This document shows positions 64 to 30,343 of a stretch of 30,343 nucleotides of DNA, piece by piece. Origin of the DNA: a virus; IMG/VR virus record IMGVR_UViG_3300004774_000478, positions 1 through 30,343 of that record. The stretch is one strand, 5' to 3'. Below the pieces are notes generated by a model. That model saw only the letters and a list, made by a program, of their open reading frames with translations. It was not told where the DNA came from and searched no databases. How positions within the stretch are numbered: the first letter of the stretch is position 1; each line of letters starts with the position of its first letter. The translations under genes were made by a program, and so were the position numbers.

Positions 64-729
64 ATGCAGTCACAACCCGACGCCGCCGACCGTGATCTGG
101 TTGCCGCCGCCCTCCGCAAGACCAAGGCCGGCGAGAAGCTCAACCCGCCAGAAGCCGCAGCACTCAAGCGGTTCCGCGTCGCCGCCGAAGAGGCCGACCG
201 CTGGCGATACTACGCGACGATCCCCAAGAAACACTGGGTCAAGCTCAGCGGCCGGCAACACAAGATCCTGGACGAGCAGGCCAGTCGCTATCAACTCCCG
301 GTCCTCGGCTCAGTCATCGACCTGGGTGCCGTCGCCCGCTGGCTACACGACTTCCTGGCACGCAACGCCACTAAGCTCAAGCCTGGCGACGACGACGTGC
401 TCGTCCAGGGCGATTCTAATTGGGCCGAGCGATACCGAAAAGAACGCGCCTTACTGGTGCGGCTCGACCGTCGCGAGCGCGAGCAGGCCCTTGTCAGCCG
501 CGAGCGGTCGCATCAATGCTGGATTCGGGTCGCCGGCGTCCTGCGTCGGGCTGGCGAAACACTCCAGCGGCAGTTTGGGCCGACAGCCCTACGCATACTC
601 AACCAGGCACTAGAGGATGCGGAACGTGAAGTGGATTCTGTTTTTGCTGATGGCAACTCAACTAAGCCCGATCGATCAGACGACCGCCGCGGAGATTCGG
701 TGGTGCCTGACGTCGGCTCGAACTCGTGA
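64..729 (+). CDS. Probable terminase small subunit (Nu1-like position)
   Basis: The 221-residue product probably recognises phage DNA and recruits the large terminase for packaging. It lies directly upstream of, and overlaps, a GpA-type large terminase, the place of lambda nu1. Residues about 55-100 (SGRQHKILDEQA, then IDLGAVARWLHDFLA) look like a helix-rich DNA-binding region of the kind I associate with small terminases of planctomycete prophages. A charged helical stretch follows (about 115-190) and the last 30 residues are polar and probably disordered. No textbook HTH is obvious, so the call rests mainly on position and general resemblance. The ATG at 64 is the first reasonable start. 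No convincing Shine-Dalgarno is visible, and any gene upstream lies outside the window. Confidence 0.68.
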   Translation: MQSQPDAADRDLVAAALRKTKAGEKLNPPEAAALKRFRVAAEEADRWRYYATIPKKHWVKLSGRQHKILDEQASRYQLPVLGSVIDLGAVARWLHDFLARNATKLKPGDDDVLVQGDSNWAERYRKERALLVRLDRREREQALVSRERSHQCWIRVAGVLRRAGETLQRQFGPTALRILNQALEDAEREVDSVFADGNSTKPDRSDDRRGDSVVPDVGSNS

Positions 730-2683
730 AATCCGGACCCGCCGCCAATGGTGCGAGCAAGTACTCGTACCTTCTGAGGGGCCGCTTCGCGATCAGTTAT
801 GGCGTGCCGAGTCCCAGCCCTTTCAGGCCCTACTGCTCGACGCCATGGATAGCGGCAAGTGGCCCCGTATCGTCACCACCGGTTGCGTACAGAGCGGGAA
901 ATCTCTAATTTGCTTCGTCGTTCCACAGCTCTATCACCTGTTTGAGCTGCAAGAGACGACCATCGCCGGTGCTCCAACCCAGGATGTGAACCACGACAAA
1001 TGGGATAAGGAAACCAAGCCGGTCATTCTATCCTCGCCCGATCTCCGCGAGCTGCTCCCAACCTCCGGCCCTGGCAGTCGCGATGGAATAGGCAACCTCG
1101 AATCGATCAAGTTCAAGAACGGTGCAGAACTCAAGTTCATGTCGGCCGGCGGAGGCGATGAGAAGCGGTCGAGCTACACCTCCCGCGTCGTCGTGACCAC
1201 CGAGCTGGACAAGATGGATCAGGCGGGCGAATCCTCCCGTGAGACCGACCCGGTGACACAGATGGAGAACCGGTCCAGTGCCTGGGGCATCCTGGAGCGG
1301 AATTTCTACGGCGAATGCACCGTTTCCACGGAGCAGGGGAGGATCTGGCAGGAATATACACGTGGCACGCAGTCCCGCATCGTCTGCCCTTGCCCGCACT
1401 GCCGGCAGTATGTCGCCCCCGAGCGTGAGCATCTCCTCGGCTGGCAGCAGGCAACGACCGAAATCGAGGCCATGCGGCTAGCCCACTTCGTTTGCCCGTC
1501 CTGTGCCCAACCGATCAGCGCCGCCGAACGCCGCACAATGAACGAGGCGGGCCGGCTGCTGCACCGTGGTCAGTCGATCGACGCCGACGGCACGATCAGC
1601 GGCGAGGCCCCCGACACGCTGACCCTCGGGTTCCGCTGGTCTGCATTCAATAACCTCCTTTGGTTTCCCGACACGATCGGCGCCAAGGAATGGAAGGCAC
1701 TGCGGGCGGAAGACAACGAGTCCGCCGAGCGGGAGCTGGTGCAATTCGTCTGGGTCATCCCCCACGTACCGCCGGCCGTCGACGAAACGCCGCTCGAAGC
1801 CGCCAAGCTCGCCCTGCGAATGCAAGACCCCGGCAAGGGGATCGTCCCCGCCGACGCCCAGGCCCTCGTCATGCACATCGACATCGGCAAGCGAGTTTCC
1901 TACTGGATGCTCATGGCCTGGCTTCCCGACGGCCGTGGCCATATCGTCGATTATGGTACCTTCGAGGTCGCCGGCGACTCGATGGACATCGCCCGGGCGA
2001 TCCTGCTGGCCCTCCGCGATTTCCGAGATCAGATCATCGAGCCTGGTTTCGTGGTCGATGGCACGTCTGATAGGCGGATTCCTGAGCAGGTTTGGATCGA
2101 TGCCCGCTACAAGTCGCAAGGAATATTCGCATTCTGCGGCGAGTCTGGCCCTCGCTACAAGGCGGCGATGGGGTGCGGCGACGGAGCGCAGTATGGACGC
2201 CGGTACTCCCGCCCTGCCGCGATCAACAAGCGGATACGCCTGGTGGGAGAGGATTACCATATCGTCTGGTTCCCCACGGAGCGTGCTTGGGTTGTGGAAG
2301 TCAACGCCGATTACTGGAAATCGTGGGGGCATCGCCGCCTCGCCACGCCGATCACCGACGATGCCGGGAATCTCCAAGGTGGTGCCATGACCTTCTACGG
2401 ATCGACCGACCGCAACGAGCATATCCGCCTCGGTAAGCATCTCACCTCCGAAAAGGAAGTCGAGGAATTTCTTCCCAATCGCGGGCTGGTCCGAAAATGG
2501 GTCCGCCTCTCGCGATCGAACCATCACTTCGATAACTATTACAATTGTTGTGCGATCGGCCACGCCCTTGGGGTTCGGCTGATCGCTCCCCCGCCACCGC
2601 CTCCGCAGGCACCGACCCGCGAGGCCGCCCCATCACGGTTTGCCACCGACGGCAGGCCGTTCATGGTTAATGAAAGAAAGTAG
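650..2683 (+). CDS. Terminase large subunit, GpA family
   Basis: This is the packaging motor ATPase and nuclease that cuts phage DNA and pumps it into proheads. At 677 residues it is close to lambda gpA (641). A Walker A motif GCVQSGKS lies at about residues 78-85 and a Walker B-like VVVTTELD ends at about 187. Paired cysteines in CPCPHC and later CPSC look like a zinc-binding insert. An RNase H-like nuclease region follows (MHIDIG, then VDYGTF and VVDGTSD). A proline-rich tail (PPPPPPQAP) ends the protein. The ORF is open from an ATG at 617, but AGAGG lies directly against that codon and the added 11 residues are an unlikely hydrophobic stub, so 650 is preferred. Either way the gene overlaps the small terminase, which suggests translational coupling. 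Confidence 0.93.
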   Translation: MATQLSPIDQTTAAEIRWCLTSARTREIRTRRQWCEQVLVPSEGPLRDQLWRAESQPFQALLLDAMDSGKWPRIVTTGCVQSGKSLICFVVPQLYHLFELQETTIAGAPTQDVNHDKWDKETKPVILSSPDLRELLPTSGPGSRDGIGNLESIKFKNGAELKFMSAGGGDEKRSSYTSRVVVTTELDKMDQAGESSRETDPVTQMENRSSAWGILERNFYGECTVSTEQGRIWQEYTRGTQSRIVCPCPHCRQYVAPEREHLLGWQQATTEIEAMRLAHFVCPSCAQPISAAERRTMNEAGRLLHRGQSIDADGTISGEAPDTLTLGFRWSAFNNLLWFPDTIGAKEWKALRAEDNESAERELVQFVWVIPHVPPAVDETPLEAAKLALRMQDPGKGIVPADAQALVMHIDIGKRVSYWMLMAWLPDGRGHIVDYGTFEVAGDSMDIARAILLALRDFRDQIIEPGFVVDGTSDRRIPEQVWIDARYKSQGIFAFCGESGPRYKAAMGCGDGAQYGRRYSRPAAINKRIRLVGEDYHIVWFPTERAWVVEVNADYWKSWGHRRLATPITDDAGNLQGGAMTFYGSTDRNEHIRLGKHLTSEKEVEEFLPNRGLVRKWVRLSRSNHHFDNYYNCCAIGHALGVRLIAPPPPPPQAPTREAAPSRFATDGRPFMVNERK

Positions 2684-10405: not shown

Positions 10406-11398
10406 ATGTCCGCTCCCCGTACCGCAATCCAGCGTTTTGACTTGTCGTTTTCGTACGGCGAGTTCAACCTGCTGGCCAACCAAAAGAAGTTCATCGGCCT
10501 GAAGGTTTTGCCTCCGGCGCCGGTGGCCATGCAAGCCGCGTCTTACCTTCGCGTGAAGGTCGCCAGCCTGCTCACCAAGATCGAGGACACCAAGCGCGCG
10601 CCCTACACCGGCTACAAGCGAGGTAACTTCCTCTTCGATACCGACACCTACGCCACGGAAGACCACGGCGTCGAGGAACCGGTCGATGATCGCCAGTTGG
10701 CGGTTTACTCCAACGTCATCAAGTTGGAGAACTTCGCCACCATGCGGGCGATCAACCGCGTCCTGTTGGCCTATGAGGCCGACGTTGCCTCGGCCGTCTT
10801 CGCCACCGGAACGTTCTCCAACGCCGCCGCGGCCACTCCATGGACCACGCACGCATCGGCCAAGCCGATCGACGACATCGACGCAGCCCGGCAAGTCGTG
10901 CTACTCGCCTGCGGAACCCTCCCCAACACGCTGATCCTCAGCGATTGGGCCTTGGTTCAGCTCTGCCGTTGCAGCCAGATCCAAGACCTGCTCAAGTATT
11001 CGGGTCACGACGATCCGAAGCAGTACATTCAGCGGCTTCCCGCACTCTGCGAGCTGCTCTTGCTCGACGAGATCCTGGTCGGGCGTGGCATCAAGAACTC
11101 GGCCGACGAGGGACAGACCGCAACGATGGCCCGGATCTGGGATCCGACCATGGCGATGGTCTGCCACGTCTCCAAGGAGATCGATGTCGAGACGCCCGAG
11201 CCAACGATTGGCCGGACCTTCATGTGGACCGACGAAAACGCCCAGATCCCGGGCGGAGAAGACAGCACCCCCGGCGTCATCGTCGAGGAGTACCGCGAGG
11301 AAAACCGCCGCGGTGGCACGATCCGTGCCCGCAACGACCGCCAGGTGAAGATCTTCCACCCCGAGGCCGGCACGCTGATCACCAGCGTAACCGCGTAG
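10406..11398 (+). CDS. Major capsid protein, lambda gpE family
   Basis: The 330-residue shell subunit is about the size of lambda gpE (341). Features of this capsid group are an N-terminal LSFSYGEFNLLANQKKFIG segment, YKRGNFLFDTDTYATEDHGVEEPVDDR around residues 71-95 (the E-loop region), and a helical spine with AINRVLLAYE. A C-terminal beta region contains RTFMWTDENAQ and ends with the REENRRGGTIRARNDRQVKI block. It lies after protease, scaffold and decoration genes, as in lambda. The SD (GGAG) is 9 nt before the ATG. It is set apart by hairpin-forming gaps of 155 and 79 nt while most other genes are tightly packed, which suggests separate control of its level. Confidence 0.88.
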   Translation: MSAPRTAIQRFDLSFSYGEFNLLANQKKFIGLKVLPPAPVAMQAASYLRVKVASLLTKIEDTKRAPYTGYKRGNFLFDTDTYATEDHGVEEPVDDRQLAVYSNVIKLENFATMRAINRVLLAYEADVASAVFATGTFSNAAAATPWTTHASAKPIDDIDAARQVVLLACGTLPNTLILSDWALVQLCRCSQIQDLLKYSGHDDPKQYIQRLPALCELLLLDEILVGRGIKNSADEGQTATMARIWDPTMAMVCHVSKEIDVETPEPTIGRTFMWTDENAQIPGGEDSTPGVIVEEYREENRRGGTIRARNDRQVKIFHPEAGTLITSVTA

Positions 11399-15485: not shown

Positions 15486-15565
15486 CCCTCACGCGATGGG
15501 CACGCGGGCTTTTCCCCGCCTACCGCCCGACGCTTGCGGATCTATGGTGGCTCAACCAAGTGTAA
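15458..15565 (+). CDS. GT-like frameshift extension / 27-residue ORF
   Basis: This segment adds 35 residues to the chaperone after -1 slippage at the A9 run, giving a product of about 272 residues ending in LADLWWLNQV. It also contains an ATG at 15482 that overlaps the chaperone stop (ATGA) and would give a 27-residue peptide by coupled reinitiation. The basic, aromatic tail (RWARGLFPAYRP, then WW) fits a T-like domain that binds the tape measure or tube protein. The frameshift is the more likely use given phage precedent. The gap to the tape measure start is only 6 nt. Confidence 0.6.
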   Translation, partial: NGVASFRTMTLTRWARGLFPAYRPTLADLWWLNQV

Positions 15566-15571
15566 CCCCCC

Positions 15572-17632
15572 ATGGCCGGTGAAATCGCCTACAAACTGAC
15601 CGCCGACGAAGCGCAGGCCCTGCAAGCCGTTTCGCGCCTATCGCGGGAGTTTGGACTCAATGAGACGGCGATCAAGAAATCGGTCGAGGCGACGAAGGAA
15701 CTCGACCGCACCCAGCAGCAGATGGGCCGCGAGGCCGCGAAGGTGTTTGCCGACACTCGCACGCCGATTGAGCAGCATCAACAGCAGTTGAAAAAGCTCG
15801 ACGAACTGCACAAGCAGAACAAGATCGACGCCGAGACCTACGGCAGGTCCGTCAAACAAGCCACCGATGGCTACGAATCCTCGCTGAAAAACGTCCATCA
15901 GCAGCAGAAGCAATGTTTCGGATCCGAATCTTTATTAGACATCGCGAGCTTCGCGGTCGGACTCTTGTCGATTGGGACGGCAGTTGGTGCCGTAAAAACG
16001 GCACTCGAAGGCGTGCAGAAAATGAAGGACAAGGCCGGGGAAGATATCCGTCAAAACGAGAGACCATTCTCTGTGCTTGCGCAAGTCTCTGATCGCGATC
16101 CGGAGGAGAACGCCAGGCTCATTAAGAAGGCCGAGACCATTGCAAAAAGTGCTGGAATCTCAGAGAAGGACGCCGCGAATCTGGTCTTCAAGGCTGCAAG
16201 CGCGAGACAGTCAGGCGGCCTAGACGATCTCGATCTATTTGCGGAACTTGCGGGCCAAGGTCAGACGAACAATCCTGCTGAACTTCTGGAAAAAGTCAGC
16301 ACCATCAAAACGGCTGCGGGCGAAAAAAGCAATCTGAGTCGCCGCGACATTATGAGTAAGCTCGTCGCGGTAGGTGAGAATAGTTTCAAATCCGTAGAGC
16401 AGATTGCCCCAGCCGTGGCCGGAGCCGTCACTGGATCGAAAGAGGCGGGAGTTTCTCTTGATGAGGTCATGGGGGCCATTGCTTATACAAGCATGGCCAA
16501 TGATCCGGAACTTGCCAGAACTAGGCAGGTATCCCTCCAGAAGAGCTTGGCAAAATTGCGAAGCCCGAGCATGGCGGGAAAGTCTAGCGGCTACACCCAG
16601 GAGCAGTACGATAAAGAGTCTGCCGACCTCGACCAGGAAAAGCGCAACCTCCAATATGAGATCACGGCCGAGCAGCGGAAGATGACCGGCAGTCAAAGGA
16701 AGGCAGCAGACCCAGCCCGGTGGGACGCACAACACGCTGCGCTCAAGAAGAAGACTGAGGCCCTCCACCACAAAAAGGGAACTATCTCGCATGACTTAGA
16801 GGTGGACGAAGAGGGGCATCCCCTTGACGCGAACGCCAAGCAGTTGCGAGCCGCAGCATCGGCGGCACTAATCAAGGCCGGGCCGGGACTGTTCAGTCAA
16901 CTCCATGCGATAGAAGGTCTGAAACTGGATCCAGCGCAAAAGCAAAAGCTATTGGGCCGACAAGAGTCCGTCCAACAGATGGGGCTATTGCTCGAAAACG
17001 AAGAGGGCGTCAAAAAAGCAACAGATGCTATCAGCAGGGCAGCAAAAGAAGACGCGATAGGCGCGATTCTGAAGCTGCCTTCCACAAATGCCGGTATATC
17101 GGCTGCACAGGGCGCGAGAAAACAGGCACAGATAACGAAAGGTATTGACAAAGAAGAGTTTGGAACCGAAGCCACCTTGATCCAGCATTATTGGGACTGG
17201 CAGCATGCGCAGTCTGTGGCGCAGGGTAGTCCTACTACTGCTGCAATTGGCGACTGGATGAATAAGTCATCCAACCTTCTTCCAGGTGCCTACGGTCGAA
17301 CGCTACGCGGAGCGATCGATCCGGACACCGGTATTGGCGGCGGGAAAAACGCACTCCTTAATCCCCAAGTAACCAACCAAGAGACGAATGAAGAGTTAAG
17401 GCTCTCTGGTGCAAAACTCTTTACGGGAATCGTTAAGCAACAGGGCGGCATCGATCAAGTAACGGCCGGCATGAGGGATAAATCGGCTAATCAAGTGCGC
17501 TCGGAATTTGAAGAGGCGACCAAGTTGCTCCAACAGGCTGCTAAGTCGATGGAAAGTGCCGCAAGCGATACGAAGGCCGCCGCCCAATCCAGGCCAGCAC
17601 TAGCACCAGCACTCCACGACCCAGGAAAATAA
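15572..17632 (+). CDS. Tape measure protein
   Basis: The 686-residue protein that sets tail length and travels with the DNA during ejection. It has long coiled-coil segments rich in Lys, Glu, Gln and Ala (20-115 and 340-440), and a hydrophobic Gly/Ala segment (about 120-145, LLDIASFAVGLLSIGTAVGAV) like those seen in tape measures. The middle is mainly helical (AKSAGISEKDAANLVFKAAS) and the tail is helical (SEFEEATKLLQQAAKSMESAAS). It lies directly after the chaperone/frameshift pair. If the usual relation of about 1.5 angstrom per residue holds, a tail near 100 nm is implied. The GC content is somewhat lower than in neighbouring genes between 15900 and 17600. Confidence 0.88.
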   Translation: MAGEIAYKLTADEAQALQAVSRLSREFGLNETAIKKSVEATKELDRTQQQMGREAAKVFADTRTPIEQHQQQLKKLDELHKQNKIDAETYGRSVKQATDGYESSLKNVHQQQKQCFGSESLLDIASFAVGLLSIGTAVGAVKTALEGVQKMKDKAGEDIRQNERPFSVLAQVSDRDPEENARLIKKAETIAKSAGISEKDAANLVFKAASARQSGGLDDLDLFAELAGQGQTNNPAELLEKVSTIKTAAGEKSNLSRRDIMSKLVAVGENSFKSVEQIAPAVAGAVTGSKEAGVSLDEVMGAIAYTSMANDPELARTRQVSLQKSLAKLRSPSMAGKSSGYTQEQYDKESADLDQEKRNLQYEITAEQRKMTGSQRKAADPARWDAQHAALKKKTEALHHKKGTISHDLEVDEEGHPLDANAKQLRAAASAALIKAGPGLFSQLHAIEGLKLDPAQKQKLLGRQESVQQMGLLLENEEGVKKATDAISRAAKEDAIGAILKLPSTNAGISAAQGARKQAQITKGIDKEEFGTEATLIQHYWDWQHAQSVAQGSPTTAAIGDWMNKSSNLLPGAYGRTLRGAIDPDTGIGGGKNALLNPQVTNQETNEELRLSGAKLFTGIVKQQGGIDQVTAGMRDKSANQVRSEFEEATKLLQQAAKSMESAASDTKAAAQSRPALAPALHDPGK

Positions 17633-17648
17633 CACCCAACACACCCTC

Positions 17649-18011
17649 ATGCCCTCCATCAACACCATAGTCTGCTTCAGTATTATCGGCGTGATCCCCG
17701 CGCCGAAGATGAAGCTGTCTGTATGGACGGTGCCCGGCATCAATGGCTATGGAGCGCAGCAGCTCGGCTACCAGGACCAGCACTTCGAGGTGATTCTCGT
17801 TGGCTATGGGAGCAAGTCCGCCGCCCAGACGTGGAATACGCAAGTCTGCGCCTGCCAGGGAAAGTCGGTAACAATCGTCGATGATTTTGGCAAATCGAAT
17901 GAAAACTGCCTAGTAACCGAAGTCGGCCCCATGCGATTCGAGGCCGCGATCGCCGCCGGCGGAATCGCCGTCCGGGCGGAATGTAGCGTCAAGGGGGTTG
18001 TGAGAACATGA
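17649..18011 (+). CDS. Small tail protein after the tape measure
   Basis: A 120-residue protein in the position of distal-tail or minor tail proteins. It is beta-rich with a PGINGYGAQQLGYQDQHFEV segment and GKSVTIVDDFGKSNENCLVTEV, a pattern reminiscent of the small tail-tip proteins that carry a ring-forming beta-barrel. Cysteines sit in CAC and at NCLV. No SD is visible at the ATG, which follows the tape measure stop by 16 nt. Its stop overlaps the start of the sigma factor gene (ATGA at 18008), so the regulator is translationally coupled to a virion gene. The family is unknown. Confidence 0.6.
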   Translation: MPSINTIVCFSIIGVIPAPKMKLSVWTVPGINGYGAQQLGYQDQHFEVILVGYGSKSAAQTWNTQVCACQGKSVTIVDDFGKSNENCLVTEVGPMRFEAAIAAGGIAVRAECSVKGVVRT

Positions 18012-18526
18012 CCAACCACCTCCCGCTCGTGAAATCGATCGCCACGAAACTATGTCGCTATCTGCCTTCCACGCTCGACAAGGACGACCTAATCCAAGAG
18101 GGTGCTGTTGCGCTAGTGGAATGCCTGCGAAGTCACGACCCGGCCCGCGGAGCATTCAGCACCTACGCTTATCCGTTTATTCGTGGCGCGATGCTCGACA
18201 TCATTCGGAAGCAGGATTGGGCACCTCGATTGGAACGGCAGCGGAATCCAGATCGGCTAAAGAAGATGGTTTCCATGTTTGAACCGAACCAAAACGGCTC
18301 GACGCTAGCCGACGACCTGGCGGACGACGATCCGACATTGAAGCGATTCATTCATCGCGACGAGATAGGGTATAAACTGCGAAACGTAAACCAACCTGAC
18401 CGATGGCTACTGCAAGAGTATTACATGCAGGGCCGCACGCTAGCCGAGATAGGGTTAAAGCTCGGAGTAACTAAGCAGCGAATCGAACAGCGACACGCCA
18501 AAATAATGAAGGAACTGAGATCATGA
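18008..18526 (+). CDS. Sigma-70-family sigma factor
   Basis: The 172-residue protein has sigma region 2 at 1-70 (DLIQEGAVALVECL at 27-40, then the FSTYAYPFIRGAMLDIIRK block) and region 4 at about 115-171 (LAEIGLKLGVTKQRIEQRH, a helix-turn-helix). It lacks region 1.1 and most of region 3, like FliA-type or small phage sigma factors. It should bind host core RNA polymerase and direct it to particular phage or host promoters. It is coupled to the tail protein before it and to the PEP-CTERM gene after it (ATGA at 18523), so it would be made late. It may drive the last genes or keep late transcription on. Confidence 0.9.
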   Translation: MTNHLPLVKSIATKLCRYLPSTLDKDDLIQEGAVALVECLRSHDPARGAFSTYAYPFIRGAMLDIIRKQDWAPRLERQRNPDRLKKMVSMFEPNQNGSTLADDLADDDPTLKRFIHRDEIGYKLRNVNQPDRWLLQEYYMQGRTLAEIGLKLGVTKQRIEQRHAKIMKELRS

Positions 18527-20052
18527 AAAGATTCTTATTGTCACTCCTGATTCTTATGACCTTGGCCGCGACGGCCCATGCCCATATAGCCGTACTCGAC
18601 AACCCTGGTTATGCGTGGACGGGCGCATCTTCGACCATGGTAGTAATTTCCGATCCGATCACAATCACCACCGGTGCCAACGTGCTGGTACTCGATGTGG
18701 AGGCTTTCGGCAATTCCAACTGGACCGGATTCGCCTTCAACATCAACGGCACTCCTCTCGTGCAGGCCGCAGGCCAACTCACCACCGGAACCTATAAAAC
18801 GTCTAGCGCGATCTATTATTTCTACGATCCGCCCACAGGCAGCCTGACTCTCTCCGGCACGTTTGGCAGTGCGACAGCCGCCATACTCGATTACTACACG
18901 TTGTCGGGCGTCGATACGGCGATTGCCGTGGATGGCTACTCAACCAACGGCGGCAGCAATACCACGGCCAGCCTCACGGTATCGAACTCTGCCGGGGCAT
19001 TTGCGGCCGTCAACCAGGCGTTAAAGGCCGGAGCGGAAACCTACAGCTACGCGGCCACGCACGGCACGGCCAGCACGAATCCATCTGCCACGATCAATAA
19101 TCTGTCTGGCGGATCTGGCTACGTGTTGGGCCTGACGGCCGGTACGAACGCGATCACGGCCACGGTGGACCTGAATAACGGCACTACGCATCCCATGAGC
19201 GTGGCGGTATTCACGGCATCAATTCCGGCATCCGGTTCATCGCATTGGATCGCCGGCGATGGCAATTGGAGCGGAGGCTCTAATTGGGACAGTAGCCTCG
19301 TGCCGAACGGGTCGGGACAGACCGCGACATTTTCCCAGACGGGGGATCTCACAGAAACCATTACGATTGACGATTCGCCCACCGTTGGAACCCTCGCGCT
19401 AGGCTCTACCGCAGATTCCTCTACCGAGTACGTTTTTACCGGTGGGACGCTCACCCTTAGTACGTCGGCGAGTGGTGTGGTTTGCGTGAGCGGCGGGACT
19501 CAAACGATTATCAGTTCGATTATAGGAACTGGCAAAGTAATCCAAAACGGTTCGGGAACACTCATCCTCTCAGGCAGCAACAGCTACAGCGGCGGGACAT
19601 TCGTCAACGCTGGAATGATCGTTGCCACCTCAAGCGATGCCCTGCCCGATGACGGGAGCCTGACGATCGGTTCCGGCGGCACGTTGGTATTCGATCCGAG
19701 CTTTTCCCTATCTTCCTTCGCCGCGGCACCAGCATCGGTGAGCAGCGTCTCGCCGGTCCCTGAACCTTCATCCTTCGTAATGCTTTTTATATTTTTCTGT
19801 GGTCTCTCGCTCATGTTAGGAAGGCATATCATGCGTTTTCGGAATGCGTTTCTCGGTTGCGTTTTATCGTTGGCCCTCTCTTCGTGGGCGTGTGCCTGCG
19901 AGGAAGGAACCAGTCTCCCCGGTCCACCCGGCACGCCGGAGCCGGTAACGATGGGTCTGTTGGGTGCGGCGGCCCCCTGTCTACTGGCCTGCTGGTTGCG
20001 AAATAAGCGGCGATCCCGCCTCGATGCGATGGATGAGGCCAATGACGAATAA
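18523..20052 (+). CDS. Secreted PEP-CTERM protein with beta-strand repeats
   Basis: A 509-residue protein with a signal peptide (MKRFLLSLLILMTL, cleavage near AHA at 18-20) and a beta-rich body. Residues about 241-395 match autotransporter-associated beta-strand repeats (HWIAGDGNWSGGSNWD, then GTGKVIQNGSGTLILSGSNSYSGGT). A PEP-CTERM sorting signal follows at 411-440 (PVPEP, hydrophobic helix, then GRHIMRFR), recognised in hosts by exosortase. The frame then continues without a stop into a second signal-peptide-like and PEP-like unit (437-500). Such genes belong to Planctomycetes and Verrucomicrobia chromosomes, and it is unexpected in a phage tail cluster. It may alter the host surface, for example against superinfection. 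It is coupled to the sigma factor gene. Confidence 0.87.
   Translation: MKRFLLSLLILMTLAATAHAHIAVLDNPGYAWTGASSTMVVISDPITITTGANVLVLDVEAFGNSNWTGFAFNINGTPLVQAAGQLTTGTYKTSSAIYYFYDPPTGSLTLSGTFGSATAAILDYYTLSGVDTAIAVDGYSTNGGSNTTASLTVSNSAGAFAAVNQALKAGAETYSYAATHGTASTNPSATINNLSGGSGYVLGLTAGTNAITATVDLNNGTTHPMSVAVFTASIPASGSSHWIAGDGNWSGGSNWDSSLVPNGSGQTATFSQTGDLTETITIDDSPTVGTLALGSTADSSTEYVFTGGTLTLSTSASGVVCVSGGTQTIISSIIGTGKVIQNGSGTLILSGSNSYSGGTFVNAGMIVATSSDALPDDGSLTIGSGGTLVFDPSFSLSSFAAAPASVSSVSPVPEPSSFVMLFIFFCGLSLMLGRHIMRFRNAFLGCVLSLALSSWACACEEGTSLPGPPGTPEPVTMGLLGAAAPCLLACWLRNKRRSRLDAMDEANDE
19831..20052 (+). CDS. Possible nested 73-residue PEP-motif protein
   Basis: An in-frame ATG at 19831 has GGAAGG at 19818-19823, 7 nt upstream. 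It would make a 73-residue protein with its own signal-peptide-like N-terminus (MRFRNAFLGCVLSLALSS, then CACEE), a short Pro/Gly linker, a second PEP motif (TPEP), a hydrophobic segment and RNKRRSR. The arrangement duplicates a secretion and sorting unit at the end of the long protein. Either both proteins are made, or a stop codon between two once-separate genes was lost. A lipoprotein reading (Cys near residue 20) is possible but the lipobox is poor. Confidence 0.5.
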   Translation: MRFRNAFLGCVLSLALSSWACACEEGTSLPGPPGTPEPVTMGLLGAAAPCLLACWLRNKRRSRLDAMDEANDE

Positions 20053-20224
20053 CTTACTCGATCCACTCGCCGTGCCCGAAGTCTACGCACCCCGGCCCAA
20101 GAAGCGTCGTCAACGTGAGATGAGTGACGCGCAAGCCTACGTGATCATAGTCACCGTAGGATCTGTTTTTGGGGTTCTGATTGCGATTATTATCCTACCC
20201 CTATTGGCACTACTAGGAATATAA
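20042..20224 (+). CDS. Small one-TM membrane protein
   Basis: A 60-residue protein starting at ATG 20042, overlapping the PEP-CTERM gene by 11 nt. Its N-terminal half is polar with a basic cluster (PKKRRQRE, 20-26). A long hydrophobic segment follows (33-58, YVIIVTVGSVFGVLIAIIILPLLALL), so it should sit in the inner membrane with the N-terminus inside. Small single-span proteins in phages include holins, superinfection immunity proteins and modulators of secretion, but no motif decides. The overlap with the secreted protein suggests the two are made together. The fibre gene follows 3 nt after the stop. Confidence 0.62.
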   Translation: MTNNLLDPLAVPEVYAPRPKKRRQREMSDAQAYVIIVTVGSVFGVLIAIIILPLLALLGI

Positions 20225-20227
20225 AAA

Positions 20228-21982
20228 ATGCCCGCAGCACCTGCCGTTCTATTAAACTCCACAAACGTCATTAGCGACTACACCAGTCTGCTTGGGACGG
20301 CCTATACGGGTCTCACTGCTACGGGCGTGAGGTGGTTTGGCAATATCTCGACACCTGTTTCGATTGGTAGTTGTCTGTCGGCTGCGCTCGCAATGCGGAG
20401 TCTAATCGTATCCAGTAGCACGCGGGGCCAACAGGTCTACTTCCCCGAGGGTGGGAATCCACAGACGACCGATACGCTTTGGACAGGCACCGTGACGGCC
20501 AACGCACCTGGCGTGTTGGCATGGGCCAGGGCGAACAACAATATCACGGACAGCGGAACCCTCGGTAGTGCGGCCACCCTCGCCAGCGTATTAGCTCTCG
20601 CGAGCACGCCGGGGAGTTGGCCGGCGGGAGGTATGGTAGACGCGGCCGGGGCGCATCACCTGCTTGGCACCTATGGCCAGATCGACTGGCAAAACAAATC
20701 GGCCGTTAAGCTCGCCTTGCAGAATTTCAAGGCAATTTTTATCGTGCTCAATGGCACAACCCTTGTCACCGCGTCTACTAGCGGAAGTACGACCGTGGGA
20801 GCCAGGGACCGTTGCGTCTACGGCCAGGCGGCGGCAAACGGGGTGAACCATTGCTTTATCGTCTGCGATTATGGCACGGCCGCCCAACTCGCAACCCAAT
20901 ACGGTATCACGCTCCCCAGCGGACTCGCAACGGACACGTTTTGCCTAGGCGGTCTGTCCTGGGGAAAGTTCGTTATTCTCGATTGGCAATCGTGGCTAAA
21001 TCTCGGCTCCTATGCCTACGTCGTCACCACCGACGCCGACCGCGGCGATGCAGCGACATTCAACGCACAGGCACCCGCGATCTATGCCGGAATCACTGGG
21101 GCGAGCGGAATCAGCCCGATTGTCCTGGGGCCGTTTGTTTCCACCTCGTTCGCGCGGGTAACGACCGGCACGCCCGACTTGGCTGGCTATATCAACGGCG
21201 TGGCCCAGGGGCTTACTGGCCTGATTGGGGCCGTCGATTCGCTCGGATACGCGAAATATACCCCCAGTGCGGCCGACGTGTCGAACCTCGGGCAACTAAT
21301 CATTGACGCAACACTTACCGGAGCCGCTCCATTCTGCTGGCAAAAGCAGCTCACTTCGCAATCGGTAGGCAACGGCAACGCACTACAAAGCACTGTACGC
21401 GCCACACCTGCGACCGGGGCAAAGCAGTTCATTACCGACCTGCTTTACGCTACGGCATCCAGTAGCGGGCTGCTGACAAGCCTCGTTGGCCAGGTGGTCA
21501 CTTTCACCAGCGGTACGGCAATTGGAAAATCGTACCTCGTCAACGGCTACTCCAATGCAAGTAGTTACCTTTCGCTGAGCCTAGCAGGCGGTATGTCGCC
21601 GGCACCGACTGCAACCAACACGTTCATTCTCAGTAATGTCGCCACAGCCAACGCTCTTGCAACGCAGATCGCCACGCTGCCGGTCCTGGGGCAGATCATC
21701 GATCAAGTATCGGGCGACGGGTCGGCAATCATAACGACAGCGGGCGGGTTCAACGCAACCCTCGACCTCGACACGATCAGCATGACGCCCCCCACGTCGG
21801 CCACTGGTTTTGCCAACTGGACATTCCGGCAATTACTCGTCATGCTCGGCCGGCTCTTCTTTGGTCCCGCCATGGAAAACGGCAGCCAAAGAAAAACGTA
21901 CGCCAACGACGGCACGACGGTCATCACGAGGCAGACCATTGGCGACGATGGCACCACGCAGATACAGGGAAAGGTGCCATAA
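20228..21982 (+). CDS. Tail fibre with papain-like cysteine peptidase fold
   Basis: A 584-residue protein. The first 270 residues resemble a papain/C39-like domain: SIGSCLSAALAM puts the likely nucleophile at Cys49, GVNHCFIVCDYG gives His208, and GLSWGKFVILDW (242-253) matches the SWG segment seen in related domains. An Asn/Asp third residue is not clear, so activity is uncertain. The middle is Ser/Thr/Gly/Ala-rich and beta-predicted. The end carries a fibre-type motif (RKTYANDGTTVITRQ, then DGTTQIQG), common in phage tail fibre or upper baseplate proteins. It may trim surface proteins or peptidoglycan-linked peptides during adsorption. It follows the small membrane protein gene by 3 nt. Confidence 0.7.
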   Translation: MPAAPAVLLNSTNVISDYTSLLGTAYTGLTATGVRWFGNISTPVSIGSCLSAALAMRSLIVSSSTRGQQVYFPEGGNPQTTDTLWTGTVTANAPGVLAWARANNNITDSGTLGSAATLASVLALASTPGSWPAGGMVDAAGAHHLLGTYGQIDWQNKSAVKLALQNFKAIFIVLNGTTLVTASTSGSTTVGARDRCVYGQAAANGVNHCFIVCDYGTAAQLATQYGITLPSGLATDTFCLGGLSWGKFVILDWQSWLNLGSYAYVVTTDADRGDAATFNAQAPAIYAGITGASGISPIVLGPFVSTSFARVTTGTPDLAGYINGVAQGLTGLIGAVDSLGYAKYTPSAADVSNLGQLIIDATLTGAAPFCWQKQLTSQSVGNGNALQSTVRATPATGAKQFITDLLYATASSSGLLTSLVGQVVTFTSGTAIGKSYLVNGYSNASSYLSLSLAGGMSPAPTATNTFILSNVATANALATQIATLPVLGQIIDQVSGDGSAIITTAGGFNATLDLDTISMTPPTSATGFANWTFRQLLVMLGRLFFGPAMENGSQRKTYANDGTTVITRQTIGDDGTTQIQGKVP

Positions 21983-21988
21983 CAAACG

Positions 21989-22591
21989 ATGTCGCTCTCG
22001 CCCCTCGCATTCCTGCCGCCATTTCATCGGCCCTATCGCATGGCGACGTCTATCGTCATCGTGGCGATCGACGGCACGACCGAGGTGGAGGTGACGAGCG
22101 GGCTGAGGGGGACCGTCTATTATCATTGGTGGCTCAATGGTGCTTATCTTGGGCGGACCCTCGACGGCAGTCGCACTTTTCGACTGGACGAAGGCGAGGC
22201 CGCGAGGCTCGATGTTCACGACACCAAGGATCCGAATTACGATCCGGCGACCTTCGACTGCCAAGCGGCACCAGCTCGGCGACTAATCGCCTGGACTCGC
22301 AGCCTCGACCCCCTCTGCGCCTTCTATCGGATCGATCAGAAGAAGAATAACGAAGCATGGAAGAATGCGACATGGGTGCCGGCCGACGCACTCACATGGC
22401 AATATACATGGGAAAGCGACATCCTCGAAGACCTCCAAGACTACACCTGGCGGGTTGTTCCTCTCGACGCCGCCAGTAACGCAGGGACATCGATCACCCT
22501 GCCTACCGAGAAGATCGTCCGCACGCCCGACGCACCTAGATGGGGCTTTCATTTTAACCTCGTGACGCGTCTGGTACAGTTTTACAAATGA
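21989..22591 (+). CDS. FN3-like tail protein
   Basis: A 200-residue protein with two beta-sandwich-like parts. One holds YYHWWLNGAYLGRTLDGSRTFRLDEGE, with DVHDTKDPNYDP after it. The second (about 95-190) contains the fibronectin-III-like pattern LCAFYRIDQKKNNEAW, then LQDYTWRVVPLDAASNAGT, a common shape in tail fibres that bind surfaces. It ends with a strand (VTRLVQFYK). The start could also be an ATG at 22040 (MATSIVIV); 21989 is kept because it lies 6 nt after the upstream stop. The stop overlaps the next ATG (ATGA at 22588). I recognise the type as common in planctomycete-linked tail clusters, without a specific name. Confidence 0.65.
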   Translation: MSLSPLAFLPPFHRPYRMATSIVIVAIDGTTEVEVTSGLRGTVYYHWWLNGAYLGRTLDGSRTFRLDEGEAARLDVHDTKDPNYDPATFDCQAAPARRLIAWTRSLDPLCAFYRIDQKKNNEAWKNATWVPADALTWQYTWESDILEDLQDYTWRVVPLDAASNAGTSITLPTEKIVRTPDAPRWGFHFNLVTRLVQFYK

Positions 22592-23874
22592 CACCCAACC
22601 AACTCCAACTCGAAACGGCCGGCGTTCCGATCGTATCGCTCCAAGCAATTGGCACATTACACGGCGTCCGGATCTCGGCAGTCGCCGCGATGAATGGTCC
22701 TGGTGCTGGGCTACTCTCGATCGACGCCGCCGGCCTGGTCACCTGGTCGCCACCAGGCGGGGCCGATGGGCTGCCCGTCGATGTCTCAGCGGGTGGGGAA
22801 TTCGTTGTTTTTGGCGACGATCCGAATCAATGGCTTGCCATTTCGGTCGAGGCGGACTATCTGGCCCTAGCCAGTCAGGCCACGGTGATTTTACAGGATG
22901 TTTACAATAGCCCGCTCGTTGGCAGCGACGTCACAGCCACGCAATCGGCCGCCGGAAACGTCCAGGACTGGACGATTACCCTCCACAACACCTCGGCAGT
23001 TTCGATAAGCGATCTGAATGCCTGGCTCGCAGTAGACGCTTCCGACTGGCAGCATTGGCAGATCTCCGCCGACAACATCACCTGGTCGGTGCCAAGCGAC
23101 GCCGGGCACGCCCTGTCGATGCCGCCGATCGCCGCCTCCGGGACCGTGCCGCTCTACCTGCGTCGCACCGTCGTCACCGGCGAACCGTCGCGAGCCGAAT
23201 TGCGATTGTCGGTCCACCTGGCCTGGTCGGGATGCGAAACGGAAGCCCGCGGACTATGGAGGATCTTCGCACCGGCCTGCTACCGCTTCTACTGCGGCCG
23301 GGTTGTGCCACCCGTGGAAGGATCTACGCCATGGGACACGGCCACATCGCTCCCCCACACGCCCACCAGCCCATTTACTGAGGCAGACGGCACATGGTAT
23401 CTGGCCATGAGCTATTTCAACGGGGTCTATGATTCCGGCTTCCTTCCGCTCGGCCCCAGCGGAGAGACTTACCTCACTATGTCGATGACCTCTGGCTTAG
23501 TCGTTTCCGAACCGCCGACACCGATGTCGGTCGAGCTGGCCGAGACGACCCAAGGCGTGGTAACGGTGACCGCCCTGGTGGCCTCGGACGCAACCGCCGA
23601 CGAATGGCTGATTACCTACACCGTCGACGGCGGATCGCCCATCACTTTCGCCGAGCCGTATCCTTCCGGCGCGCTGGCCGTCCTGAGTGCATCGCTACCC
23701 GCTCAGGCGGCCGGCAGCGTCGTCGCCGTGACCGTGCAAACTCGCCGCAACGACGGCACCCCCGGCGTTTTTCTATGGGTGGTTGGTGATTCGCTCAGCG
23801 ATACCATCACCCTCGCGCTCGCTGGCCCAACCGCTCCGCTCGACGCAATCTCAGCTCAACCTATCCCCGAGTAA
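22588..23874 (+). CDS. Beta-rich tail protein, unknown
   Basis: The 428-residue protein is beta-rich with several Ig/FN3-like stretches. One around 120-215 (DWTITLHNTSAVSISDLNAWL, then RRTVVTGEPSRAELRLSVH) resembles a ligand-binding or structural sandwich. Another at about 315-425 (VTVTALVASDATADEWLITYTVDGG) could be an FN3-like repeat. A middle part is rich in aromatic residues (CYRFYCGRV, then WYLAMSYFNGVYDSGF). It has no transmembrane segment or signal peptide, so it is probably part of the tail tip. It overlaps the preceding gene by ATGA and is followed after 5 nt by the hub-like gene. No family is identified. Confidence 0.58.
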   Translation: MTPNQLQLETAGVPIVSLQAIGTLHGVRISAVAAMNGPGAGLLSIDAAGLVTWSPPGGADGLPVDVSAGGEFVVFGDDPNQWLAISVEADYLALASQATVILQDVYNSPLVGSDVTATQSAAGNVQDWTITLHNTSAVSISDLNAWLAVDASDWQHWQISADNITWSVPSDAGHALSMPPIAASGTVPLYLRRTVVTGEPSRAELRLSVHLAWSGCETEARGLWRIFAPACYRFYCGRVVPPVEGSTPWDTATSLPHTPTSPFTEADGTWYLAMSYFNGVYDSGFLPLGPSGETYLTMSMTSGLVVSEPPTPMSVELAETTQGVVTVTALVASDATADEWLITYTVDGGSPITFAEPYPSGALAVLSASLPAQAAGSVVAVTVQTRRNDGTPGVFLWVVGDSLSDTITLALAGPTAPLDAISAQPIPE

Positions 23875-23879
23875 GCACT

Positions 23880-25988
23880 ATGGGCGAAACAATTCTTGGA
23901 CCCGCCGGCACGATCCCCTACAAGACCAACCCGACCGTCGTCCAGACGAAAACGAAGTGGAGAGGCACTTGGAAGACCGAGCCCGGACTAATGCTCGAAA
24001 CGGCTACCCGAAACGCCGGCGGCAACGACCTCGACTCCGCGGTATTTCTCTGGAAATATGGCAACCTCGCCCACCCGTGGGATAAAGACCTGAAGCAATA
24101 TAAGCCGCTTGGACTCGACGGCGACTGGATCCGCGTCTGCCTCACCGTCAAGAACGAGCTTCAAACCCTCTGGTTTGGCCGCATCTATGGCGAGGGACGA
24201 AATATCCATGGCAGCGATACCGGAGCGGAGAATCCAGGCGACAAGGGATTTCCCAGTGGGGTACAACGGTGGCAGGCGTACGGCCCGCAAATGATTTTGC
24301 GCAAGATATCGATCAGCAAGAGCCTCTGGATCGCGACAGATAAAGCCGATCTCAAGGGAGATAACTGGCTCGGTTGGCTCCCTGACATGAACGACCGCGT
24401 AGGGCAACATGCTCTTTTGGTCGGCAATCGTTCTGTGGCAAATCATTCTGGCAAGAGCTATATTTTTGGTGGTACAGACATCTGGAGTGCCTACGACTTT
24501 GTTGAGTATGTCCTGGCGTGGCATTGCGACTTTTCCGCGACGGGTGGGCCGAAGTTCAAACTCGGCGGCCAGGCGGACGTTCTCAAATCTCTGACCTACG
24601 CGCAGAAGTGGCCAGAGACAACCACCGCCGACCACATCCTTCGCGAGTTAATTAGCCCACGGCTCGGCGTCGATTTCAAGATTGACTATTCCGACTCGAA
24701 TAAGTCATTCACGGTAAACGTCTTCTCCCTCCAAAGCAAGGCGATCGCCGCAGGTGATGCTAAACTGCCGGCGAACCCCAATAAAGTCCGGGTGAAGGCG
24801 GGCGAAAGTCCCGCCAACCTCAGCACCACCATCGCTGTGTCTTCCGACCACAAAGTCCATAAGATCCGTGTGCTCGGAAAGCGGGTGGTGGTCTGCTGTT
24901 CGCTTCTTGGCTCACAGTGCGACGACCTGGATGATCCGAGAGAAGGCGCCATTGATATGGCGTGGAATGCCGACGATGAACGCGCTTACAATGAGGGTAC
25001 GGGTGGATCTGCTCCGTCTGATGCTGATGGCTTATTGCAATACCCCGTCGATAGCGCGGAGCGGGCCGACTATATCCGCCGTGATTCGCGTTTTCGTGAC
25101 GTCTTCTCTCTCTGGCTGATGCCGAAGAACTTTGACCTCGCGACCATTTCGGCGGCAATCATGCTGGATGACAAAGGATCGCCTTCCGTCGGGGCCGGCG
25201 GCAACCTACCGCCCCGGCAACTCCTCACCCACAAGACACTCCATTGGCTCCCCCTTCAATCTGACTATGACTACAGCGTATGGCCGCCGACGAAGCTGGA
25301 CATCGAGAGCGATACGGACTATGCCCCGCAGATGATGCCGCCCCAGGTCTGGATCAGGAAGGACAAGGAAATGTACCAGCCGGCCCACATGGCCGGGATC
25401 CATGTCGGGATTCCGCGTCATGGACTGGGCGTCCGGCTCACTTGCAATCCACGCCACCTATTAGGTAAAGACAACTTCCTCGCTACGGCCCCTACATGCC
25501 ATGAGCCGATATGGAACGCCGCCGAGATGGTCGTCACCATTGCCTTTGATTCTGACGCACGGCTCGCGCTTGAATATGAGGTTCCTGGGAGCGACCCGCT
25601 CGACGGGATCGAAGAAATTCTCCTCAATGATGCGGAGATGTGGGTGCTTGCTCCAGGAACATTTCTTCAAACAAATACTGATCCCGACAAGTGGGGATTC
25701 TTCAAGTCCCCTGATCGGCTCGCCTTCACCCGCGATGACCGGCCCCGAATGGGAATGGTGCTGGCGGGTGCAATCGCCCGATATGGGTCCAGTCGCTGTC
25801 GGGCTGAGATCGTCGCCGCCGGCATCGCACCATGGCAGGGGCTACTGGGTCAGATCCTCACCACGATCGAGAGCGGCGGCATGTCGTCCGTCGTCGAGGC
25901 ACCGATCACGCAAATCTCCTGGAGCAGTTCGCACGACGGCGGTTTGCCGAGAACGACCATCCGAACGGGCTTTGCTAACCGAGAGTAA
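23880..25988 (+). CDS. Probable tail hub / baseplate protein
   Basis: A 702-residue protein, the third largest here, with no signal peptide. Residues about 10-130 are beta-rich and resemble a hub beta-barrel (WRGTWKTEPGLMLETATRNAGG, then GDWIRVCLTVKNELQTLWFGRIYGEG). About 215-310 fits the adjoining domain of gp27- or Tal-type hub proteins (KWPETTTADHILRELISPRLGVDFKI). The C-terminal part continues as a beta-rich structure ending ESGGMSSVVEAPITQISW. It is therefore the likely centre of the tail tip, on which fibres assemble. I infer this from size, order and the hub-like pattern; no catalytic motif is visible. It follows the previous gene by 5 nt and precedes the next ATG by 2 nt. Confidence 0.6.
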   Translation: MGETILGPAGTIPYKTNPTVVQTKTKWRGTWKTEPGLMLETATRNAGGNDLDSAVFLWKYGNLAHPWDKDLKQYKPLGLDGDWIRVCLTVKNELQTLWFGRIYGEGRNIHGSDTGAENPGDKGFPSGVQRWQAYGPQMILRKISISKSLWIATDKADLKGDNWLGWLPDMNDRVGQHALLVGNRSVANHSGKSYIFGGTDIWSAYDFVEYVLAWHCDFSATGGPKFKLGGQADVLKSLTYAQKWPETTTADHILRELISPRLGVDFKIDYSDSNKSFTVNVFSLQSKAIAAGDAKLPANPNKVRVKAGESPANLSTTIAVSSDHKVHKIRVLGKRVVVCCSLLGSQCDDLDDPREGAIDMAWNADDERAYNEGTGGSAPSDADGLLQYPVDSAERADYIRRDSRFRDVFSLWLMPKNFDLATISAAIMLDDKGSPSVGAGGNLPPRQLLTHKTLHWLPLQSDYDYSVWPPTKLDIESDTDYAPQMMPPQVWIRKDKEMYQPAHMAGIHVGIPRHGLGVRLTCNPRHLLGKDNFLATAPTCHEPIWNAAEMVVTIAFDSDARLALEYEVPGSDPLDGIEEILLNDAEMWVLAPGTFLQTNTDPDKWGFFKSPDRLAFTRDDRPRMGMVLAGAIARYGSSRCRAEIVAAGIAPWQGLLGQILTTIESGGMSSVVEAPITQISWSSSHDGGLPRTTIRTGFANRE

Positions 25989-25990
25989 CC

Positions 25991-28141
25991 ATGTACGAAC
26001 GCGAATCCGCTACCCTGATCTCTCCAGCCCCCGCGGTGCCCGTCGACATCCGGTACATCGAGCTGAAAACCGATATGACGGTTTTGACCAGCGATCCCCT
26101 CGCGGCCGTGAAGGGAGACGCCTATCTCCTCGACAAGAACGGCGTCCGCTACGATTCGAGCCTCGTCAAGGTCTGCAATCCGGCGGGAGTTCGACGAGTA
26201 TCGCTCGGGTCCGACAGCATCGGCAATGATGCCGCCGGCAGTCCTCGTCGCGGGGCGTTTGGCCAGGCTCGCCTTAACCCACGCCGCAATGTATTAGAGA
26301 TCGTGTCGATCCAACAGCTTGCCGAGGTGGTTTATGGCACCATCGTCAACGCCTTCGTTGCGACCGACTCGACCGTCCTGCTACGCGATGTCAAAACGTC
26401 CGGGCAGGTTTATGATCAGATCCCGCCCCTCAGCTCTGGCGGCTACCTGAGCGTGACGAACGTCAATAAGTTGGTGGGGATTCAGGACGGGGCCGCCATG
26501 GCTGTCCTTGATATCGGCACAAATAGTTACCGTCTCGTCTGTTGTCCGGCACCCAATACAACCCCGAATGATCTCACTGTCGTCACGGACGTCAGCTTTG
26601 ATATAGCGACCGGAGCCTGGCGAAAAAAGACCCGCACTATATATGCTCTAACGAACATACTAGGCACCGAATCAAGCTGGACTCCCTATGTTGCTGGCCT
26701 ACAAGCCGGCTCGTCTTACCAGCGCGACCCCGTGACAGTAACGGTGACCCCCTCATCGGGTCTCGTCTACGGAAAGCCCTGCCGAATAACCATGGCCGTC
26801 GCCCCCGTATCAGGCACAGGCACCGCCGCGGTAACAGGTTATCGGGAGATTATGATCGACGATACCTACGTGGACGCATCGCAGTTGATCACAGACCCCA
26901 ATAGCTGGCAAACTGGATACTACATGACCGCTGGAACGCACTCCCTGGTAGGCGTTTATGGCGGCGACGCCAATTACAACGGCAACACATCTTCCCAACA
27001 GTCCGTATCCGTTGCCAAAGCAACCCCTTCCCTTAGTGAAACGCACTCGCCGACCGGTGACACCTTTGAATATGGCGCGCAAGTAACCTGGAGTGTGGTG
27101 CTGAATCCTGGCGACATCGATCTAACGCAAGGGAGCCGAAACGGAAACATAGGCGTCAACTCTATTCCATCAGGCAACGTCACCATGACTTGCGATGGGG
27201 TATCCTTCGGCCATGCGGTTAAGTCCATAACGTTCAATGGTCATGCGGAATTCAAATTTGATATCGACCACCCGCTCGGGGCAGGCTCGCGGACCATCGT
27301 CTTCACTTACGAAGGGGACACGAATTACAACTCGTGCTCTCTATCGAAGACCCTTTCGATCACGAAGAAAACGCTGACCTACACGACTCCCAACAAGAGC
27401 AAAATCTACGGCACTCCGAATCCTGACCTGGCTGGCACCTGGAGCGGCTGGGTCGTCGGATCTTTAGACACTCCGGCCAGCCTGGGCGGGAACGGGATAC
27501 CGACGACCACAACCACCGCAACTACAACATCGCCCGCCAGTGCCGATTCAAGCCAGTATCCGATCACGACGGTAGCAGGGCCATGTTCGTCCTACAACTA
27601 CGATCTCCATTTCGTGAATTCCATTTTGACGATCACAAAGGCAAACCTGGTCGTCACCGCCAACGCACTCTCCATGGATTACGGAGATCCCATGCCGAGC
27701 TACCCCGGCTCGATCTCGGGAATCCAATCGGGCGATAACTCGAAGATCCACCTTGACCTGACCTGCGACTATACGCCGACTTCGGAGGCAAAGTGGTACA
27801 CAATCCATGCCAACGTGACGGGTGATGAAAACGTTCTGGATAGTTACACCATCGAAAGGCACGACTCAACGTTCTTGGTCAGGAAAGCCAACCTCACGGT
27901 GACAGCCAACGACCAGACCATGACGCAAGGAGGATCGGTCCCCGCTATCTCCGCGAGTGACGGAACGGTTTCCGGTACCAGAAACTCCGACGACATCCAA
28001 TTCGCCGGCTCTTGCGATACGGACGGGAAAGAAGCTGGCCTATTCGTCATTAACGCTTCCATCTCCAGTAAAGCCTACTGGGAGCTGCGATACAGCATCC
28101 TCTATGTTTCTGGAATCCTCACCGTCAACGCAGCACCATGA
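25991..28141 (+). CDS. Ig-like and MBG-repeat adhesin-like tail protein
   Basis: The 716-residue protein has an N-terminal part (1-245) that probably attaches to the tail tip, then a run of adhesin-type domains. Two Ig-like (Big_3-type) units lie at about 247-344 and 345-458; each has the YxGDxNYN signature (VYGGDANYNG, TYEGDTNYNS). Two or three MBG-type units follow at about 460-555, 556-637 and 638-716 (TITKANLVVTANALSMDYGD and VRKANLTVTANDQTM). These domains occur in large bacterial surface adhesins, so the protein is a likely receptor-binding fibre whose modules may have come from host adhesins. The next gene starts with an ATGA overlap at 28138. Confidence 0.78.
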   Translation: MYERESATLISPAPAVPVDIRYIELKTDMTVLTSDPLAAVKGDAYLLDKNGVRYDSSLVKVCNPAGVRRVSLGSDSIGNDAAGSPRRGAFGQARLNPRRNVLEIVSIQQLAEVVYGTIVNAFVATDSTVLLRDVKTSGQVYDQIPPLSSGGYLSVTNVNKLVGIQDGAAMAVLDIGTNSYRLVCCPAPNTTPNDLTVVTDVSFDIATGAWRKKTRTIYALTNILGTESSWTPYVAGLQAGSSYQRDPVTVTVTPSSGLVYGKPCRITMAVAPVSGTGTAAVTGYREIMIDDTYVDASQLITDPNSWQTGYYMTAGTHSLVGVYGGDANYNGNTSSQQSVSVAKATPSLSETHSPTGDTFEYGAQVTWSVVLNPGDIDLTQGSRNGNIGVNSIPSGNVTMTCDGVSFGHAVKSITFNGHAEFKFDIDHPLGAGSRTIVFTYEGDTNYNSCSLSKTLSITKKTLTYTTPNKSKIYGTPNPDLAGTWSGWVVGSLDTPASLGGNGIPTTTTTATTTSPASADSSQYPITTVAGPCSSYNYDLHFVNSILTITKANLVVTANALSMDYGDPMPSYPGSISGIQSGDNSKIHLDLTCDYTPTSEAKWYTIHANVTGDENVLDSYTIERHDSTFLVRKANLTVTANDQTMTQGGSVPAISASDGTVSGTRNSDDIQFAGSCDTDGKEAGLFVINASISSKAYWELRYSILYVSGILTVNAAP

Positions 28142-30242: not shown

Positions 30243-30343
30243 TTTCAACTCCCCTTATTTTGCCGTTTCCATAAAACACAAAAACATATTCTTGCATTCC
30301 CGTTCCCGCGAATCATACTAGGACTATCCCCAAAATCCCTACC
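30243..30343 (-). other. Upstream region of the last minus-strand gene
   Basis: This 101-nt stretch holds the SD of the two-TM gene and an AT-rich part. It has no convincing ORF and no clear -35/-10 pair. It probably carries that gene's promoter and is cut by the window end. Confidence 0.4.

Follow-up and report, generated by a model that had tools for sequence, protein, structure and literature searches.

Most phages carry no sigma factor gene (86.6% of 4,350 phage genomes; PMC9429907), and two reports describe phage sigmas that act on host genes, either those of Bacillus anthracis phages (PMC2716549) or phage sigmas expressed in Bacillus subtilis (PMC9429907). In cyanophage P-SS2, ORF 003, a group-3 sigma, lies next to the terminase (PMC2784084). 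A literature search over partial texts, covering sigmas in tail gene clusters and sigma factors in planctomycete phages, returned nothing closer than P-SS2, and a search of the same kind for transcription control in phages of Planctomycetota, which are little described, returned nothing.

The stretch of DNA analysed, referred to here as the window, is the whole of record IMGVR_UViG_3300004774_000478 (30,343 nt, one strand). It encodes a sigma factor of an ordinary kind in a slightly unusual place, among the following features.

617..2683, plus strand: large terminase (GpA-type; PF05876 96.8 bits; phrog_15), used as a probe for phage group and hosts
10406..11398, plus strand: major head protein (phrog_1005, E 1e-49), used as a probe for close relatives
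15572..17632, plus strand: tape-measure-like gene, upstream in the same operon, named from position and length
17649..18011, plus strand: conserved gene of 120 aa that follows the tape measure immediately; its position makes it a probable minor tail protein
18008..18526, plus strand: sigma factor gene, ATG start, 172 aa, with sigma-2 at residues 3-71, sigma-4 at residues 131-171 and no sigma-3
18086..18103, plus strand: codons for DLIQEG (residues 27-32), the region-2.2 core-binding motif, placed from the translation
18523..20052, plus strand: exported PATR / PEP-CTERM protein, 509 aa, second gene of the accessory insert
20228..21982, plus strand: variable gene, next after the insert, presumptively fibre-like, with a conserved C-terminal part

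The sequence-only reading of this DNA had proposed a compact sigma-70-family factor at 18008-18526, and this was borne out, as both Pfam domains were found above their curated cut-offs (PF04542, sigma-70 region 2, 63.9 bits, E 1.2e-17, residues 3-71, cut-off 24; PF04545, region 4, 34.5 bits, E 1.4e-8, residues 131-171, cut-off 24.1) and the product matched phrog_351 'RNA polymerase sigma factor' (E 6e-30). At the level of sequence, membership of the sigma-70 family is genuine and chance is excluded. The open frame (179) is just seven residues longer than the protein (172), so the short N-terminus is not the result of a wrong start. Residues of the region-2.2 motif matter for core binding in sigma-70, and a check for lost core-binding residues found no loss, with the motif of the window sigma reading DLIQEG and resembling that of housekeeping sigmas. 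By column comparison, exact DLIQEG was present in 2 of 38 rows, the window sigma among them, and Q-E at this position in none of the 12 planctomycete FliA rows. In the AlphaFold model the helices of sigma-2 and sigma-4 are confident (pLDDT mostly 75-91 in blocks of ten residues), residues 72-119 have low confidence, and the whole-chain pTM is 0.44. The base composition of the gene is mildly atypical, with a GC of 53.2% compared to 58.6% for the window and a GC3 of 0.607, 1.4 sd below the gene mean (0.701, sd 0.069), which would be weak evidence for a recent arrival.

The best NCBIfam model for the window sigma was FliA/WhiG (TIGR02479), at 111.2 bits and under its cut-off of 189.6. The nearest entries in a PDB sequence search were WhiG and FliA (6pfv, 9wsf and 6pmi; E 8e-20 to 5e-19, over approximately residues 3-81), and the listed matches of a fold comparison were WhiG, FliA and holoenzyme entries, with 6pfv and 9wsf among the best. 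Aligned with FliA, the window sigma was found to retain regions 2.1 to 2.4 (DLIQEG, FSTYAYPFIRGAMLD, DWAPR), with FSTYA, IRGAMLD and DWAPR all kept within region 2; a short acidic ADDLADDDPT follows, linker-like as before region 4, and then a normal region 4, and what is missing relative to FliA is the sigma-3 domain (~50 residues) together with the part before region 2.1. On this alignment the protein is a FliA/WhiG type cut down to sigma-2, linker and sigma-4. The residue just before region 2.4 differs, giving FIRGA in the window sigma versus RIRGA in nearly all FliA rows, and we therefore do not claim that it recognises the same promoter sequence as FliA. The window sigma shares with ECF (group 4) sigmas a lay-out of sigma-2 and sigma-4 alone; its ECF-type region 4 (Sigma70_r4_2) scored 15.5 bits, below the cut-off of 25.7, compared to 34.5 for the ordinary region 4, no anti-sigma match was found in the gene 3' of it, which encodes the PEP-CTERM protein, and no FlgM-type anti-sigma was matched anywhere in the record.

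In a tree that kept L015 and L021 as FliA rows, the position of the window sigma was an open fork within the FliA-like sigmas, and constraining it with the FliA rows was neither supported nor rejected (p-AU 0.087). Phylogeny was rejected as evidence of the origin of the sigma, as 11 of the 35 inner branches of the tree are open and it contains several long branches that meet. The chromosomal compact sigma family was rejected as a specific parent, the FliA profile scoring higher despite a full-length match.

The gene order of the window starts with terminase, Mom, portal, head protease, head protein, tail genes and tape measure, and continues with the 17649 gene, the sigma, the PEP-CTERM gene, the fibre-like gene and further tail/appendage genes. 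The stop of the 17649 gene overlaps the sigma start by 4 nt (ATGA, 18008-18011) and the sigma stop overlaps the start of the next gene by 4 nt (ATGA, 18523-18526), with Shine-Dalgarno-like AAGGGGG before the sigma ATG and GAAGGA before the ATG of the 18523 gene; the largest intergenic gap across 15572 to 20052 is 16 nt. Because of the 4-nt overlaps on both sides, co-transcription of the sigma with late tail genes is likely. The proposed coupling between a tail gene and a secreted-protein gene was confirmed by these overlaps, 'tail' being assigned from position and export from domains, and the proposed late production of the sigma is likely from its coupling inside the tail operon. The place had also been called unusual, which is fair, yet it is paralleled by P-SS2 and by the related record G027.

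The neighbouring products were characterised by similarity. Orthologues of the 17649 gene, at 36-57% identity, occupy the same place in relatives; its product had no Pfam match, and single-sequence searches of viral contigs found no relatives of it. The tape-measure-like product is 44-46% identical over its first half in syntenic relatives; it matched no PHROG, and no Pfam family above cut-off. The 18523-20052 product matched PF12951 (PATR; 41 bits, cut-off 27) and the PEP-CTERM domain TIGR02595 (21.1 bits, cut-off 16) and has a signal-peptide-like N-terminus, judged by eye; a single-sequence search of viral contigs found no relatives of this gene either. Two sorting-signal-like ends were seen in this protein, at residues 411-429 (Pfam, sub-cut-off) and 471-497 (NCBIfam), and it seems as if the sorting segment had been duplicated. 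The 20228..21982 product had no Pfam match, and its residues 507-584 are 64% identical in G002. Further along, 25991-28141 encodes an appendage protein in which MBG_2 repeats (three stretches, 85 bits) occur alongside bacterial Ig-like domains, and a convergent ORF on the minus strand (29904-30248), with its upstream end toward the contig end, encodes a small protein whose N-terminal half is hydrophobic.

The closest relatives share the gene order of the window, with proteins mostly 44-81% identical; an exception is gene 14304, which lies slightly earlier in L003, L004 and L005. Capsid proteins of relatives are up to 78% identical, and the sigma site holds other genes or nothing. The 17649 orthologue is followed by a long fibre-like gene in L003 (G002), first by a small membrane-protein-like gene in L005 (G004) and L006 (G005), and directly by a 21989-type gene in L010 (G009), G027 and G033; in G040 the end of the contig prevents a reading of this site. 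A sigma was absent from the syntenic site in L003, L005, L006 and L010. Matches to the 17649 gene were found in 8 of 50 records searched, one a weak fragment, and none of the seven solid matches was adjoined by a sigma. Orthologues of 21989, 22588 and 23880 resume downstream in G002 and G005. As content after the 17649 gene varies and the order resumes later, the sigma and PEP-CTERM genes are an insert at a variable spot, and by this comparison of gene orders the sigma gene is accessory. It is absent from the same site in relatives, as a moron would be, and has no promoter and terminator of its own, the genes overlapping their neighbours; a sigma gene that lies within an operon and lacks a promoter to itself is unlike the classical moron.

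Sigma-70 region 2 was detected in four of the 87 related virus records screened, a set with many fragments (0/13, 3/37 and 1/37), and the four sigma-bearing records differ from one another and from the window. The sigma lies near an integrase, ~15 kb before the terminase, in G057, ~6 kb before the terminase in G082, and ~7 kb before it on the opposite strand in G039. In G027 a sigma of 219 aa, 28% identical to the window sigma, starts within the stop of the preceding gene, and an attachment-site search of this record found no direct repeat and no tRNA that would mark it as a prophage. A P0001 search of 13 head-protein relatives, with no control of its own, was empty. Searching viral contigs for close relatives of the window sigma gave none by single sequence, and an alignment query reached distant ones only. 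One viral contig (L028) carries two nearby sigma genes, one compact and one longer and FliA-like (1414-2040 and 3080-3814). GenBank 'phage' matches with FliA-type proteins (gut records) were dropped as phage precedents after reading MT837366 (L015); that record (MT837366.1) is filed under 'Bacteriophage sp.' but has the look of a chemotaxis-FliA operon from a bacterium, the gene names behind this reading being our assumption, and similar gut records may be mislabelled.

Relatives of the terminase in named genomes comprised 13 loci, two of them from one isolate, of which 12 carry Planctomycetota names (including Roseiconus and Thalassoglobus, which we take to be Planctomycetota genera) and one just 'bacterium'. 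Judged from these relatives the phage group lives in Planctomycetota, and the PEP-CTERM gene of the window fits such a host. At 30 kb the window is short compared to the 41-48 kb of its longest close relatives, and the early part of the genome is probably absent from it; no integrase or repressor was identified in the window. Of the 392 Planctomycetota genomes sampled, 266 yielded a match to the sigma at E 1e-12 or better, and most of these matches are FliA-like in length. Planctomycetota chromosomes also encode a compact sigma-3-less family of ~210 aa (L205-L213), with conserved neighbours that are presumably topoisomerase VI subunits, and the lay-out of the phage sigma is thus not new in the host phylum. 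A Mom-family protein (3893-4519; PF25680, 80.9 bits), possibly a DNA-modification gene against host restriction, is encoded just past the terminase genes; an ASCH-domain protein (5311-5673; 28.7 bits, cut-off 21.2) and a weak match to ParB_N (3159-3896; 24.2 bits, below the cut-off of 26.3) lie among the packaging genes; and a close phage relative (G005; L163, 12379-12714) has a CsrA-family gene (58.5 bits) in a non-structural region.

Promoter searches were carried out against shuffled sequence. The FliA-type promoter consensus is TAAA-N15-GCCGATAA, and 5 matches of at least 10 of 12 positions were found in the window compared to a shuffle mean of 3.6 (range 0-7), a comparison of low power with few gaps. 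Among nine upstream regions, five spaced word pairs recurred, none of them in more than two regions, versus 2.3 (sd 2.3) in shuffles. The sites at 4790, 6113 and 29904, which the sequence-only reading had put forward for a common upstream motif, had no spaced word pair in common and no more shared sequence than shuffles, with one 7-mer in two of them versus 2.6 in shuffles. Sigma-70-like promoter matches were rarer than in shuffles, and across 15500-30343 promoter-like and terminator-like matches were fewer than in shuffles, with no excess around the sigma gene. No promoter motif above chance was found in the window, where intergenic gaps are few and the early region is probably missing, making these weak tests. 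Feedback on phage late promoters, as had been suggested, found no backing in them, FliA-type and shared-motif matches being at chance level; the promoter tests, weak as they are, do not support late-gene feedback, and targets in the missing early region would remain compatible with them. By eye, an extended -10-like host promoter (TGATATAAT, at ~4770-4800) was seen upstream of 4875.

We favour, at a probability of about 0.5, a reading in which a late-made accessory sigma of a tailed phage would take host core RNA polymerase to alternative-sigma-type promoters, of host or phage, outside its own operon. The sigma and the exported PEP-CTERM gene would have been inserted between the conserved tail gene and the variable fibre-like gene, and the sigma would be translated from a late polycistronic message, late expression being expected because of the gene overlaps and the lack of an internal promoter. 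With its motif intact, sigma-2 of the protein is predicted to bind host core RNA polymerase and, late in infection, the sigma may direct core to promoters of the group-3 alternative-sigma type, the likelier targets being host genes or phage genes beyond the window and not the encoding late operon. Action at host-type promoters is more probable than action as a dedicated late-gene sigma.

Next in likelihood, as a possible if tentative explanation, is a sigma dedicated to the phage, which would amplify the transcription of phage genes from late or very late promoters or from promoters of the missing region. The translationally coupled position in the late operon would suit it, as would the coupled compact sigma of G027 at the end of the tail module, and phage sigmas commonly serve phage development (PMC9429907); against this, close relatives with the same late operon lack a sigma in the sequence at hand, and no shared or FliA-type motif rose above shuffles in the window.

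That the sigma and the PEP-CTERM surface protein would jointly remodel the host surface, as a lysogenic- or late-conversion pair, appears unlikely. Both genes lie in one insert with a 4-nt overlap, the second encodes an exported PEP-CTERM protein, and phage-encoded sigmas alter exopolysaccharide, biofilm and sporulation in Bacillus anthracis lysogens (PMC2716549), but no integrase or repressor was identified in the window, the PEP-CTERM protein had no relative among the viral contigs searched, and expression in the lysogenic state would not be expected from late-operon genes. We consider it improbable that the reduced sigma, with sigma-3 missing, an N-terminus that begins inside region 2.1 and DLIQEG intact, works as a competitor that has no promoters to itself and takes up host core or obstructs the FliA regulon of the host, as the region 4 helix-turn-helix is retained and confidently modelled and sigma-3 is likewise missing from the same-phylum chromosomal relatives, which are conserved along with the genes around them, so that loss of sigma-3 does not imply lost function.

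Because the gene would be made with the virion proteins and is coupled to a tail gene, the sigma could in principle be packed in the virion, injected with the DNA and used to steer host RNA polymerase to the first phage genes when the next cell is infected; this is very improbable, and an encapsidated bacterial-type sigma would, if true, be a new way of starting early transcription. A two-domain phage sigma of FliA type, whose timing is hinted at by its place in the operon, would offer a handle on late transcription or host reprogramming in Planctomycetota. Compact sigmas that differ from each other occur in the late operons of two related phages, those of the window and G027, which suggests a recurring use.

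Compared with known systems, the window sigma resembles FliA/WhiG (group 3, sigma-28, including the chromosomal FliA of Planctomycetota) in its region 2, where it is 34-49% identical to planctomycete homologues, and in its region 4 helix-turn-helix; unlike these it lacks sigma-3 and the part before region 2.1 and does not reach the TIGR02479 cut-off. It has the same lay-out as the compact chromosomal sigmas of Planctomycetota (~210 aa, L205-L213), aligning with them over nearly the full length at 28-32% identity, yet it scored 73.8 bits with their profile versus 92.6 with the FliA profile and so is no specific member of that family. Bacillus anthracis phages likewise encode bacterial-type sigmas that act on host genes, Bcp25/26 and Wip38/39 (PMC2716549), in other hosts and genomes, a likeness drawn from their description. 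ORF 003 of cyanophage P-SS2 (group-3 sigma, 214 aa; 46 bits with the planctomycete FliA profile) also has a FliA-like region 2 and lies in a siphovirus packaging/structural operon, but after the terminase instead of the tape measure, and with a diverged region 4. The G027 sigma (L156:5401-6060, minus strand) is from the same phage group, compact and without sigma-3, and it shares a 4-nt overlap with the late gene before it; it differs in being 28% identical and in lying at the far end of the tail module, whereas the window sigma lies inside its own.
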